Assembly: GCA_902761755.1 (NCBI GenBank)
Contig: CACWLP010000026.1
Coordinates: forward strand, 1-45,195
DNA from: an uncultured Eubacteriales bacterium
GTDB taxonomy: Bacteria > Bacillota > Clostridia > Christensenellales > Aristaeellaceae
Direction: 5' to 3'
DNA: 45,195 nucleotides
Shown: positions 2,934 to 23,033 of the stretch, piece after piece
How the letters are laid out: every line of letters begins with the position of its first letter
How positions within the stretch are numbered: position 1 is the first letter of the stretch
Translations under genes and position numbers: made by a program
Notes under the pieces: generated by a model
The model's database searches: none
What the model saw: the letters and a program-made list of their open reading frames with translations, nothing else
What the model was told of the DNA's origin: nothing

Positions 2934-3308
2934 TTACTTCTTCGGGCGCTTGGCGCCGTAGAGCGAGCGGCCCTGGTTGCGCTTGGCAACGCCGGCCGTG
3001 TCCAGCGCGCCGCGAATGATGTGGTAACGGACGCCGGGCAGATCGCGCACACGGCCGCCGCGGATCAGCACGACGGAGTGCTCCTGCAGATTGTGACCGA
3101 TTCCGGGAATGTAGCAGGTACCTTCGATGGAATTGGTCAGACGGATCCTCGCGATTTTGCGCAGAGCCGAATTGGGCTTCTTGGGCGTCGTGGTCTTGAC
3201 GCTCAGGCATACGCCGCGCTTTTGCGGGCAACCCTGCAGGATGGGCGCGGTTGACTTGTTGACAACCTTTTCTCTTCCCTTGCGGATCAACTGATTGATC
3301 GTTGGCAT
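2934..3308 (-). CDS. rpsL: 30S ribosomal protein S12
   Basis: A 124-residue uS12, the decoding-centre protein. It starts [15 protein letters not shown] and contains the conserved [11 protein letters not shown] loop, the site of streptomycin-resistance changes in other species, and the later [10 protein letters not shown] segment. The start is set at 3308 because AGGAGGTGCTTCC directly precedes this ATG and the known family N-terminus begins here. An open frame continues 28 codons upstream but reads non-family sequence. The 287 bases up to ybxF contain the hairpin element at 3400-3604. Confidence 0.97.
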
Positions 3309-3399
3309 GGAAGCACCTCCTGATAATTGTTCGGAGCCGTTTTGCGGTCTCCTCCTATAACATCCCCGCAACCCTCGGGAATATATAGTCATTGCTGGA

Positions 3400-3604
3400 C
3401 CGATAAAACGGGCACGCCTGTTTTATCGGGTTTGCAGATTTTCCTGCGGTGCAGGCACCGCGGCCGGAAAATCTGAGAAGAATGAAAATTTCCTCCCGCA
3501 TCAGAGATGCTCCGGAAATTTTCTCCTCGAACCGGCAAAGCCGGTTCTGCGGATTTCAATCGAAGGTTTGGCCAGCCTTCGAAGCATCCGGCGGATCAGT
3601 CCGC
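3400..3604 (-). other. Hairpin-array element, copy A (candidate structured RNA)
   Basis: Read on the minus strand, this stretch between ybxF and rpsL forms at least six consecutive hairpins with almost no unpaired sequence. They are: a 5-bp stem over the ybxF stop (3591-3604); TCGAAGG/CCTTCGA (3560-3582) enclosed by CGGAT/ATCCG; AACCGGC-TTT-GCCGGTT (3530-3546); GGAAATTTTC/GAAAATTTCC (3484-3523) enclosing CATC-TCT-GATG; a 10-bp stem at 3435-3475 with an inner GCGGTG/CACCGC; and CCGATAAAAC/GTTTTATCGG (3400-3429), extendable to 13 bp. Linkers AATCCGCAG (3547-3555), CGAGGAG (3523-3529), GGAG (3510-3513) and CGGGAGG (3492-3498) recur in the same order in copy B at 21933-22107. It lies sense-oriented inside the str operon. 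I do not recognise the family. Confidence 0.6.
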
Positions 3605-3868
3605 TTTGGGTTCTTCTGCGTCAGTGCGGAGCACGCCCGCAGCGGCGGAAGGCACGTCCACCCGGCAGAGCTGGGACAGCTCCTCCATGGTGGCCACGGT
3701 CCGAAGCGCCGTCCCGGTTTCCCGGGCCGCCTGCTCCACCTGCTGCCGCAGATGCGGCGCCGCATCCAGGGAGAGAAACACGCAGTCCAGCTTGTTTTCC
3801 TTCAGGCCGCGCAGCACCTGCCGCACGCCTACCACCCGCATGGACCGCTTTTTCAGCCGCTCCGGCAT
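3596..3868 (-). CDS. ybxF: L7Ae/YbxF-type ribosomal protein
   Basis: A 90-residue member of the bacterial L7Ae family (YbxF/YlxQ), small RNA-binding proteins that recognise kink-turn RNA. The segment GVRQVLRGLKENKLDCVFLSLDA matches the family's conserved first half. In Bacillus subtilis ybxF sits just before rpsL, which is exactly the position here and supports the assignment. ATG at 3868 is chosen because GGAGGA lies ten bases upstream; a longer frame starting at 3961 would overlap the promoter. The C-terminal tail ending TDAEEPKAD is acidic. The stop codon lies inside the first hairpin of the downstream array. rpoC, which precedes ybxF in B. subtilis, is not adjacent. Confidence 0.85.
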   Translation of the reverse strand: MPERLKKRSMRVVGVRQVLRGLKENKLDCVFLSLDAAPHLRQQVEQAARETGTALRTVATMEELSQLCRVDVPSAAAGVLRTDAEEPKAD

Positions 3869-3932
3869 GTCCCTTTTCCTCCGTTCTTCGGCGCAGGAAC
3901 GCAGTCGCCCGCATAATGCAGACAACTTTAAC

Positions 3933-3961
3933 ATAATAACATCGGCAAAATCAATTGTCAA
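3933..3961 (-). promoter_or_regulatory. Promoter of the ybxF-rpsL-rpsG-fusA-tuf operon
   Basis: On the minus strand TTGACA (3956-3961) is followed after 17 bases by TATTAT (3933-3938). This is a near-consensus housekeeping promoter in a locally AT-rich stretch. The predicted start near 3926 gives a leader of about 58 bases to the ybxF ATG, and excludes the in-frame codon at 3961 as a start. Confidence 0.85.
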
Positions 3962-20558: not shown

Positions 20559-21815
20559 ATGCGTCATTCGCTCAAACATGCGTCGGCACTGCTGTTGGCG
20601 CTTCTCCTTTGCATCAGCCTGATACCGACTGCGCTGGGAGAAACCTACACCGGCACAGTCAATGAAGACAAGGTGTTTTTCCGTACGCAGCCGAACACGG
20701 ACTGCGTATACTACTGCCAGCTGGCCAAGGGCACCAAGGTCAAAGTGACGGGCACCAGCGGCAATTTCTATAAGGTCACCTACGACGGATGCTCCGGCTA
20801 CGTGATGCAGAAATTCGTCACCCTGTCCGACAGCGCGAAGAACGCGCTGGGCACCGCCAAGAGCAGCAGCACCTACGCCTCCGCCACCAGCATTTCCCAG
20901 CTGGGCGGCCCGCCGGATTACACCCAGCAGGGCTCCAGCGGCAAAAACGTGGAAAAGCTGCAGCAGGCCCTGAAGATCAAGGGCTATTATAAGGGCACCG
21001 TGGACGGTAAATTCGGCCAGAACACCGAAAGCGCGGTAAAGGCTTATCAGAAAGCCGTGGGCATTCCCCAGACCGGCAAGGCGGACTACGCCACCATCCT
21101 GAAGCTGTTCGGCAGCGTGCAGAGCACTTCCGTGGCCAACGACCCCAAAATGAACGGCATCACCCGCATTTCCGAAATCGCCGTTCCGGCCACCACCCAG
21201 CCCGGCAGCAGCGGAAAGAACGTGGTGGCCCTGCAGCAGGCGCTGAAGATCAAGGGCTTCTTCAAAGCGCCCATCGACGGCAAATACGGCGACACCACCA
21301 AGGAAGCCGTGCTGGCGTTCCAGAAATCCCGGGGCCTGTATCAGGACGGCATCGCGGGGAACAACACCATCAAGGCGCTCTTTGGCAAGAACGCTTCCAA
21401 CTACACCTTCACCACCGAACGGCTGGATTGGTTCAACGGCGGCAGCAGCGTATTCAGCGGCAGCTGCATCTATACCGTCAAGGACATCTACACCGGCAAG
21501 ACCTTCCGCTGCCAGCGCCGCTTCGGCAGCAACCACCTGGACAGCGAGCCCCTGACCGCCGAGGACACCGCCACGCTGAAATCCATCTACGGCGGAGAAT
21601 GGAGCTGGAGCCGCAGGCCCATCCTGGTGAAATACAACGGCCACGTGTACGCCGCCTCCATGAACGGCATGCCCCACGGCACCTGCACCATCACCAACAA
21701 CAATTTCGACGGCCATTTCTGCATCCACTTCTACAACAGCAAAACCCACGAAACCAAGCGGGTGGACGAAGCGCATCAGCACTGCGTATCCGTGGCCATG
21801 AACAACGTGTGGTAA
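20559..21815 (+). CDS. Secreted peptidoglycan-binding protein with SH3b and two PG_binding_1 domains
   Basis: A 418-residue exported protein. Signal peptide about 1-27; an SH3b-like domain (28-90, with VFFRTQPNTDCVYYCQLAKG); two PG_binding_1 domains (about 122-180 and 210-270) with almost identical cores GSSGKNVEKLQQALKIKGYY and GSSGKNVVALQQALKIKGFF; then a C-terminal domain of about 140 residues with DGHFCIHFYNSKTHETKRVD and a final Cys-containing strand. The His- and Cys-rich C-terminal domain recurs in clostridial wall proteins and may be enzymatic, but I cannot name its reaction. ATG at 20559 is preferred over GTG at 20550 because AGGTGA is correctly spaced. It is a single gene with its own promoter and terminator. 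Confidence 0.9.
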   Translation: MRHSLKHASALLLALLLCISLIPTALGETYTGTVNEDKVFFRTQPNTDCVYYCQLAKGTKVKVTGTSGNFYKVTYDGCSGYVMQKFVTLSDSAKNALGTAKSSSTYASATSISQLGGPPDYTQQGSSGKNVEKLQQALKIKGYYKGTVDGKFGQNTESAVKAYQKAVGIPQTGKADYATILKLFGSVQSTSVANDPKMNGITRISEIAVPATTQPGSSGKNVVALQQALKIKGFFKAPIDGKYGDTTKEAVLAFQKSRGLYQDGIAGNNTIKALFGKNASNYTFTTERLDWFNGGSSVFSGSCIYTVKDIYTGKTFRCQRRFGSNHLDSEPLTAEDTATLKSIYGGEWSWSRRPILVKYNGHVYAASMNGMPHGTCTITNNNFDGHFCIHFYNSKTHETKRVDEAHQHCVSVAMNNVW

Positions 21816-21832
21816 ATTTCAAAATACTTTTC

Positions 21833-21873
21833 AGGGGATATTGCAGAAACCAATCTGCAATATCCTCTTTGTT
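21833..21873 (+). terminator. Intrinsic terminator after the peptidoglycan-binding protein gene
   Basis: GGATATTGCAGA (21836-21847), six-base loop, TCTGCAATATCC (21854-21865), extended by three more pairs and followed by TTTGTTT. A third copy of the arm, GGATATTGG (21879-21887), lies 13 bases downstream and could compete for the second arm. Confidence 0.85.
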
Positions 21874-21932
21874 TACAGGGATATTGGTTCTCATAGAAGA
21901 ATGAGCAACAGTGAATACCAGGAAAAAAGGAA

Positions 21933-22107
21933 ACCCCGGGGTGGATTGGAGGGGCCAAAAGCCCCTCCAAGCGGAATCCGCAGCAGCGAAGCGTGCGCTG
22001 CGAGGAGCATTTTTACGCCCGGGAGTCCCGCAGGGACGAGAGGAAAAGGCGTTTTATGTCGATCAAATGGAGGATCCATTTGATCGAAGGGGCTGTGCAA
22101 CAGCCCC
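21933..22107 (+). other. Hairpin-array element, copy B (candidate structured RNA)
   Basis: Consecutive stems on the plus strand: ACCCC/GGGGT (21933-21942); TTGGAGGGGC/GCCCCTCCAA (21946-21970); CAGCG/CGCTG (21984-22000); ACGCC/GGCGT enclosing TCCC-GCA-GGGA (22026-22036); TCGATCAAATGG/CCATTTGATCGA (22059-22087); GGGGCTGT-GCA-ACAGCCCC (22089-22107). Linkers AATCCGCAG (21975-21983), CGAGGAG (22001-22007), GGAG (22022-22025) and CGAGAGG (22037-22043) match copy A at 3400-3604 in order. The hairpins between the linkers are 17 and 11 nt long in both copies, while their arms differ. The first large hairpin carries GGCCAAA in or beside its loop in both. No gene is visible in 21869-22124. Confidence 0.6.
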
Positions 22108-22124
22108 TGCGGTTGCTTTCCCCG

Positions 22125-22154
22125 TTGACGCAGGCTTTCCCCCTGTGTTAAGAT
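22125..22154 (+). promoter_or_regulatory. Possible promoter of the amino acid ABC operon
   Basis: TTGACG (22125-22130), 18 bases, TAAGAT (22149-22154), just downstream of the hairpin array. A short TTATC-ACAG-GATAA stem follows the predicted RNA start. The -10 element is poor. Confidence 0.5.
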
Positions 22155-22226
22155 GCAGTCATCCCTTATCACAGGATAACGGCTTTCTGTTCCCCGCCGG
22201 AGAAACCGACAAGGAGGAAATCAAAG

Positions 22227-23033
22227 ATGAAAAAGTACCTGCCCATCATCGTGGCGGCCGCGCTGATCGTGGCCGGCGTGATCGTATTCCTGCTTATTCC
22301 CAAAACCCCGTCCTCCCAGGGGGACATGCTGGCCCGGATCCGGGAAAAGGGCAAGCTCACCATCGCCACGGAGGGCGACTGGCCGCCCTGGACCTACCAC
22401 GGCGATGACAACGCCCTCACCGGCTTTGACGTGGAGATCGGCGGCCTGATCGCCAAGGGCCTGGGCGTGGAGCCGGATTATCAGGAGGCCGCGTGGGATT
22501 CCTTGCTGGCCGGGCTGGAATCCGGCCGGTTCGACATCGTGTGCAACGGCGTGGATTACACGGAGGACCGGGCGAAAAAATACGCCTGTTCCGATCCTTA
22601 TGTGTACACGGAGATCGTGCTGGTGGTGGCCAAAGACAATGAGGACATTCATTCCATCGAGGGCCTGAAGGGCAAAACCACCTCCAACTCCCCCAATTCC
22701 ACTTACGCCCAGCGGGCGCTGGACGCCGGGGCCACTGTGGAATACGCCGACACCCTGGCCCAGACCCTGCGGCTGGTGGAGCAGGGCCGGGTGCAGGCCA
22801 GCATCAATTCCAAAGGCTCCGTGGACGAATACCTGGAAAACAATCCGAACGCCAACCTCAAGGTGGTGCTCACCATCCCCGGCGATCCGGTGTGCTTCCC
22901 CATGGTGAAGAGCGCGGATACCGATACCCTGGTCGCGGAGGTCAACCGCATCCTTTCCCAGCTCCGGGCGGACGGCACCCTGGCCGGGCTTTCGCAGAAA
23001 TACTTCGGGGCGGACATGACGGAAGCGAAATGA
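22227..23033 (+). CDS. Amino acid ABC transporter substrate-binding protein
   Basis: A 268-residue family 3 solute-binding protein. An N-terminal hydrophobic segment (residues 4-24) without lipobox probably anchors it in the membrane. The core starts KLTIATEGDWPPWTYHGDDN with GFDVEIGGLIAKGLG and YTEDRAKKYACSDPYV, the typical polar amino acid binding pattern; the Asp of GFDVEI and the Arg of EDRA are the usual ligand contacts. AGGAGG precedes the ATG. Permease and ATPase genes follow. The ligand (glutamine, cystine or another) cannot be resolved. Confidence 0.92.
   Translation: MKKYLPIIVAAALIVAGVIVFLLIPKTPSSQGDMLARIREKGKLTIATEGDWPPWTYHGDDNALTGFDVEIGGLIAKGLGVEPDYQEAAWDSLLAGLESGRFDIVCNGVDYTEDRAKKYACSDPYVYTEIVLVVAKDNEDIHSIEGLKGKTTSNSPNSTYAQRALDAGATVEYADTLAQTLRLVEQGRVQASINSKGSVDEYLENNPNANLKVVLTIPGDPVCFPMVKSADTDTLVAEVNRILSQLRADGTLAGLSQKYFGADMTEAK

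Follow-up and report, generated by a model that had tools for sequence, protein, structure and literature searches.

Two intergenic hairpin arrays lie in the window, by which we mean the whole stretch of 45,195 nucleotides that was analysed. The first (21833-22107, forward strand) is flanked by genes for a peptidoglycan-binding-domain protein and a family-3 solute-binding protein, and the second (3400-3589, reverse strand) lies between an L7Ae-like gene (3599-3961, reverse strand) and rpsL, the gene for S12 (2937-3308, reverse strand). The stem-loop chain H1-GCAG-H2-CGAGGAG-H3-H4-H5 is common to both arrays, whose parts are given below; here and throughout, G-numbers denote genomes and L-numbers denote loci.

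21833-22107, forward strand: copy of subfamily A, shortened
21833-21868, forward strand: left-hand terminal hairpin of subfamily A, which also has a terminator-like score
21943-21979, forward strand: H1, with outer stem GGAT..ATCC and inner stem TGGAGGGGC/GCCCCTCCA
21980-21983, forward strand: linker GCAG
21984-22000, forward strand: H2, the 17-nt hairpin CAGCG-7-CGCTG
22001-22007, forward strand: linker CGAGGAG
22008-22051, forward strand: fused remnant of H3 and H4 that retains the inner hairpin TCCC-GCA-GGGA (compared with full copies by eye)
22059-22087, forward strand: H5
22089-22107, forward strand: H6, the right terminal hairpin GGGGCTGTGCAACAGCCCC
3400-3589, reverse strand: copy of subfamily D that lacks both terminal repeats
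3551-3589, reverse strand: H1 of the D copy, with loop CTGGCCAAA
3530-3546, reverse strand: H2 of the D copy, AACCGGC-TTT-GCCGGTT
3523-3529, reverse strand: linker CGAGGAG of the D copy
3484-3523, reverse strand: H3 of the D copy, with outer stem GAAAATTTCC/GGAAATTTTC and inner hairpin CATC-TCT-GATG
3435-3475, reverse strand: H4 of the D copy, with internal motif GGCCG
3400-3429, reverse strand: H5 of the D copy

Both arrays fold better than expected from their composition: the fold of 21836-22120 beats all 200 dinucleotide shuffles (z -7.1), and that of 3320-3620 on the minus strand beats all 100 (z -6.0). An earlier note on this DNA had described two arrays at these places and strands, with arms that pair, and we find them as described; GGAT..ATCC, GCAG, the 17-nt hairpin and CGAGGAG follow one another in the same order in both. 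The first array was indeed present where the note put it, but its start at 21933 was too short; judged by eye, the element really spans about 21833-22107 and includes the left hairpin at 21833-21868. The note had also paired off the 11-nt hairpins of the two arrays. These two may be homologous, as their GGAG..CGRGAGG surroundings are alike, but by position the hairpin of the first array (22026-22036) belongs to H4 and that of the second (CATC-TCT-GATG) to H3. The former falls in H4 because the first array is a deletion derivative, which, compared by eye with full copies such as G000:C1:115926-116186, has lost H3 together with a portion of the 5' arm of H4. Inside the first element there was no promoter-like match, the sole match lying downstream at 22125, and a promoter within the element was therefore rejected.

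The note had suggested a search for further copies in the genome and its relatives, and these were present in both, making this a dispersed family. In the window's genome (2.2 Mb in 46 contigs, 73% complete), BLASTN with 21900-22150 gave 73 matches, which after manual merging correspond to 36 places in addition to the window; a single place has the 21-bp end hairpin only, and several copies lack whole hairpins. The second array represents another subfamily, with 8 matches in the same genome including itself, and more subfamilies are present there. A covariance model of H1-H2 plus linker, denoted R1 and built from nine sequences, detected at least 2 to 78 copies per genome in 28 of the 29 genomes of the genus (E<=0.01), numbers that are lower bounds because only 150 candidates per genome were scored. 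Across the order, 8 of 200 genomes match R1 at E<=1e-4, six of them outside the genus: the eight are the window's genome, one more of the genus, three from other genera of the family and three from other families.

A pattern built on the H3-H4 linker was found in at least 112 stretches of named records, 80 of which are listed. Among the matches listed, the titles name uncultured Clostridia, Clostridiales or Christensenellaceae, with one archaeal record, and many titles refer to the rumen, colon, cecum or rectum of goat, sheep, water buffalo or deer. When ten such records were checked with R1, eight matched; the archaeal one (L234) did not, and since the 421 bases read from it also hold no array we take it as a chance match to the pattern. 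The viral_contigs collection gave 0 exact matches to the pattern CTTCCTNTATCAATTTNNGNCCG, and an origin from phage or virus was set aside on this search, which covers exact matches only.

Several further observations concern the integrity of the copies. Contigs often end inside the elements (C13, C17 and C20 of G000, and contig ends of G001 and G009), so that draft genomes probably understate the number of copies. By eye, further hairpin-rich inserts lie inside the element itself, for example within H1 and H4 (L104:862-1200, L083:1500-1830, L110:1500-1870, L078, L080 and L009), as if other small elements used its hairpins as landing sites. One chimeric copy, G000:C8:4487-4759 (L044), has a B-type left end (see below) beside an A-type end hairpin, with near copies of that hairpin flanking it; subfamilies therefore recombine or nest.

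The element is mobile, with terminal inverted repeats and a target duplication. Typical copies (B type) start with CAGACTGTCGACAAA and at their other end carry a near copy of it in reverse complement, which forms the 3' arm of the last hairpin, H6. One and the same hairpin flanks such a copy on both sides, and this hairpin differs from place to place. R1 matches yielded 175 distinct copies (179 before removal of duplicates), of which 152 remained after 23 copies with short flanks had been left out. By a criterion combining score and position, the flanking hairpin is duplicated in 45 of the 152 copies, compared with 4 of 1515 mismatched flank pairs. The other 107 copies are without a duplication by this criterion, and they include 36 of the 37 copies in the window's own genome, most of which are of A type; the duplication was thus seen in 1 of 37 copies inside that genome and in 44 of 115 outside it. 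Allowing shorter flanks, 46 copies with a duplication could be delimited, and their bodies measure 197-476 nt, too short for a transposase gene. The two hairpin copies can be identical over their whole length, as in L061 (38/38 bases), L168 (32/32) and L066 (30/30), and the same duplication is visible by eye in another genus (L207, L212).

What is duplicated is a hairpin, and its surroundings resemble those of a terminator. A stem of at least 7 pairs is present in 93% of the duplicated segments versus 29% of random segments, and segment length follows stem length (r=0.81), in part because longer segments allow longer stems. An A-tract (at least 4 A in the 8 nt before) precedes the left hairpin copy in 33 of 46 cases and the right copy in 2, and a T-tract (at least 4 T after) follows the right copy in 27 of 46 cases and the left in 1. 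These flanking tracts indicate that the target is an intrinsic terminator, often of the kind able to work both ways; the order A-tract, hairpin, element, hairpin, T-tract further means that insertion leaves the near hairpin without its T-tract. The neighbouring genes fit a terminator target as well: both could be called for 87 of the 175 copies, giving 39 convergent, 44 tandem (18 and 26) and 4 divergent arrangements. For this we used a codon model trained on six genes of the window, as simple longest-ORF calling had assigned neither neighbour for 51 of 79 copies; the model was right on 18 of 18 windows of its own training genes, which, being the same genes, provide no independent check.

Subfamily A differs from the B type in its ends, with a left hairpin that begins GGGGATGTTGC and the right hairpin GGGGCTGTGCAACAGCCCC. 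Among copies with a recognised end, 17 of 24 have a T-tract after the right end and 18 of 21 an A-tract before the left end. In the related genome G009, the place orthologous to 21815-22227 holds a plain terminator, CGGGAGCGAAAACGCGCTCCCG followed by eight T, and no element. This fits replacement: judging from this one orthologous site, the target hairpin seems to have given way to the inserted subfamily A element, the outcome reported for IS1272.

We searched the 29 genomes of the genus for transposases of the PF13751 type and found matches in 11. In G043 we identified an insertion sequence with an open frame of 487 aa that scores 431 bits as an IS1182 transposase (NF033551 transpos_IS1182, NCBIfam cut-off 270). 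It is bounded by the ends CAGACCATCAACAAA and CAACCCGTCAACAAA, outside which the same 33-bp terminator hairpin occurs, without a mismatch, on either side. G020 has a relative that is 89% identical, scores 420 bits against the cut-off of 270 and carries one internal stop within the matched region; its ends are similar, and it is flanked left and right by an exact 22-bp hairpin. The left and right ends agree at 12 of 15 bases in G043 and 13 of 15 in G020 and are thus terminal inverted repeats, and for both copies the target is itself an inverted repeat. The G043 ends match the CAGACTGTCGACAAA of our element at 12 and 11 of 15 positions, a likeness rather than an identity; a match of 11 of 15 is reached by 0.019% of 200,000 15-mers drawn from the fetched loci, which themselves hold copies of the element.

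On this sequence evidence, IS1182-family insertion sequences are the likely source of transposase, and we consider the element to be, probably, a non-autonomous, MITE-like mobile element that IS1182-family transposases move in trans. The transposase would nick the two strands at opposite feet of the target hairpin, and repair would then copy the hairpin, leaving a duplication as long as the hairpin itself. With the near hairpin copy severed from its T-tract, transcripts of the flanking gene could enter the element and stop at the far copy. A subfamily A element would instead bring its own terminal hairpins and replace the hairpin of the terminator.

The partner is more sparsely distributed than the element. 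An IS1182 protein was found in only 5 of the 29 genomes of the genus, intact in one of them, and not in the window's genome (as far as its 73% completeness goes), whereas the element is present in 28 of 29; for this reason the insertion sequence either comes and goes or is joined by other transposases in moving the element. Outside the genus, two of the six element-holding genomes have an IS1182 relative, G063 in pieces with stops and G217 at only 35-40% identity; no hairpin duplication was seen at the IS1182 pieces of either, and 15-mers like the element's ends lie near some of them. G063, assembled in 3 contigs, has at least 22 copies of the element. When 13 transposase loci were scanned for long direct repeats, a duplication was found only at the G043 and G020 places, which three of the loci represent (L195 and L222 are one place, and L221 is the G043 place). 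Several of the other scanned loci are fragmentary, and the best score of L199 and L201 is with the IS5 family. In G063 a CRISPR-like array (L370:120-1500), with repeats such as GTTTTCCCCACCCGCGTGGGGGTGAACCG, adjoins an IS1182-like piece.

Known RNA families account poorly for these copies, as the earlier note had supposed when it recognised none: no Rfam family matches at gathering score. Rfam 15 gave 0 matches in the window at gathering scores, and in 18 loci at E<=5 it gave 13 matches, of which the sole one above the gathering score lies outside the element. That one is a glmS ribozyme (L049:840-992, 63.7 bits against a gathering score of 37). A Yfr1 match overlapping one copy (L012) reaches 25.4 bits against 38, on the opposite strand, and was taken as chance. 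Stand-alone copies of a HEARO or omega RNA of the IscB kind would be alike in outline, being dispersed structured copies without an open reading frame, but the HEARO model (RF02033) matches 0 of 26 genomes at E<=1, the window's genome included, and neither the window nor the 18 loci at E<=5. Inverted ends and a target duplication fit a DDE transposase instead, and we regard the HEARO explanation as exceedingly improbable; the covariance-model searches of the window and the 18 loci, and for HEARO of the 26 genomes as well, rule out this and the other Rfam families. Hardly more credible are REP-type repeats moved by a TnpA/RAYT enzyme (IS200/IS605). These too are extragenic palindromes at gene ends, but terminal inverted repeats and long target duplications, both of which our element has, are not expected of REP/RAYT systems.

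We then turn to the body of the element, whose stems change while remaining paired. The covariation test proposed in the earlier note gave changes on both sides of pairs in excess of shuffled and slid controls. In the A2 alignment (71 distinct rows), 96.3% of 1417 cells pair, and 183 cells are changed on both sides versus 56.0 (sd 9.9) in shuffled and at most 32 in slid controls. In the A3 alignment (85 distinct rows), 87.1% of 1614 cells pair, and the corresponding numbers are 186 versus 65.5 (sd 10.5) in shuffled and no more than 31 in slid controls; 3 of 500 shuffles have at least as many pairs with a double change. Both alignments were fitted to the model and consist of copies related to each other. 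Among 17 diverse full copies aligned with MAFFT, a double change is seen in 46 of 74 predicted pairs, spread over H1-H6, and the fold of the copy L066 has a z of -12.8. The unpaired linkers are near-invariant and keep a fixed order, as they do in another family of the order too. For the same 17 copies RNAalifold pairs GGAT with a stretch after H3 rather than with ATCC, whereas GGAT-ATCC is retained when a single sequence is folded, so that an alternative pairing may, on these predictions, exist for the outer stem of H1.

The D copy upstream of rpsL allows orthologous copies to be compared. It is present at the same place in five other genomes (G021, G015, G014, G010 and G007; L352-L356) and, by eye, absent there in G024, G013, G018, G003, G044, G043 and G001, in a comparison that left out G004 and L360. 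In the six orthologous copies, with a structure written by hand from the G000 row, 93.8% of 387 cells are paired while the arms change. Changes on both sides affect 14 pairs and 22 cells, versus 7.1 and 8.5 in shuffled and at most 3 in slid controls; further pair types are not above chance in these six copies (21 versus 20.2, reached by 213 of 500 shuffles). Either the fold has been kept after insertion, or it was copied in by exchange between copies. Directly upstream of rpsL lies a separate conserved stretch, GACTATATATTCCCGAGGGTTGCGGGGATGTTATAGGAGGAGACCG (window 3335-3390, reverse strand), which recurs with few changes in all 13 loci read there, out of 14 (L351-L364), whether the element is present or not, and which may be a ribosomal-protein leader.

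Does the body act as RNA or as DNA? The earlier note had named two possibilities, selection on RNA structure and a family of hairpin-making repeats. The repeat family is real, and mobile, and the pair-preserving change is real too, but selection on RNA does not follow as readily, the G-U signal being inconsistent. A fold acting as RNA on one strand would be expected to show more G-U than A-C on that strand. Model-based counts show such an excess (23 versus 4, and 75 versus 23), though they lean to the model. A strand-symmetric stem finder gave 82 G-U versus 54 A-C among unique helices. A stricter strand-symmetric count of distinct events gave 44 versus 29 (p=0.10, not significant; 34 and 35 with the same finder on 79 flanks, not made distinct), with 5 versus 6 in the window's genome, and the six orthologous D copies show no excess (8 versus 10). 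Strand polarity was assessed in three ways and in the orthologues, and as the results disagree it is not relied on.

The likeliest reading of the body, at a little under an even chance, is that it acts as RNA: the conserved stem chain and its conserved linkers would be kept as the fold of a transcribed element. In one form of this, a new structured non-coding RNA or 3'-UTR module rides in the transposable element, with selection on the RNA fold and on the linkers as contact sites, which is compatible with mobility. The double changes throughout H1-H6, the near-invariant linkers, the model-based excess of G-U and the pairing of the rpsL-upstream orthologues despite their changing arms all argue for such a module; the strict G-U count, the orthologues' own G-U count, the lack of any sense/antisense bias among tandem genes (18 versus 26) and the lack of a promoter-like match in the window's first element speak against it, and we hold it as a tentative proposal. 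An equally serious candidate, also short of an even chance and also compatible with mobility, is that the palindromes are kept at the DNA level by template switching, by exchange between copies or by a transposase that reads DNA hairpins, and need no RNA function. It would suit the arms, which by eye differ in whole blocks between subfamilies, the partner's target, itself a hairpin, and mismatches without clear strand preference, but it leaves unexplained both the model-based G-U excess and the conserved unpaired linkers in their fixed order, found even in another family of the order. These linkers speak for a role specific to sequence and structure, but not for RNA alone.

A more far-reaching version of the RNA reading is that the element represents a mobile structured RNA of a new class. 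Insertion would place it in the 3' UTR of a neighbour, since the terminator hairpin is duplicated without a U-tract on the near side; the RNA would come from the host promoter and end at the far hairpin, and its fold would serve the element as RNA, for instance in transposase recognition or transcript stability, with uptake by the host upstream of rpsL. We think this composite proposal rather unlikely as a whole. The structured module, which lies outside Rfam and has strong covariation and six rpsL-upstream orthologues, could help to separate RNA-level from DNA-level causes.

Returning to the element as a putative passenger of IS1182 transposases, it can be compared with several known systems. 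Bacterial MITEs are short, occur in many copies, have inverted ends and no transposase, and are mobilised in trans. Our element shares the first four traits, and the last would follow from its proposed partner, but its body is a conserved, covarying multi-stem module rather than a decayed remnant of an insertion sequence, and it duplicates a whole target hairpin. Like Rho-independent terminators and REP-like extragenic palindromes, it lies at gene ends, and subfamily A carries terminator-like hairpins; unlike them, it is a composite, ordered array with terminal repeats that is mobile as a unit. What the element selects is not a sequence but a structure, the terminator hairpin; as each insertion leaves one hairpin on either side, the damage may be slight. 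Its many copies, spread over the majority of the genomes in one genus and reaching several further genera, form a large natural set for studying hairpin cutting by IS1182 enzymes.

The closest likeness is to IS1272 and TnSha1, staphylococcal elements of the IS1182 family. These are described as inserting at inverted repeats, many of them intrinsic terminators, with no preference for primary sequence (PMC5678879, PMC4923244). Terminator targeting by IS1182-family elements is thus already known from these sources (PMC5678879, PMC4923244). IS1272 is reported there to delete or replace the target hairpin, with no target duplication (PMC5678879, PMC4923244), and one IS1182 member is listed with a 4 in a column that appears to give duplication length (PMC3281130). 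In searches of the openly accessible literature, no report was found of a whole-hairpin duplication or of a covarying multi-stem body. As in these accounts of IS1272, the target here is a hairpin or terminator, the partner scores as an IS1182 transposase, and the subfamily A site (one site) resembles replacement of the target hairpin. Unlike what these excerpts describe for IS1272, the whole hairpin is duplicated in 45 of 152 elements and at both near-complete copies of the insertion sequence, and the element has a structured multi-stem body, of which they make no mention. Duplication here, and replacement in IS1272 and perhaps in subfamily A, may reflect a single reaction that can end in two ways.
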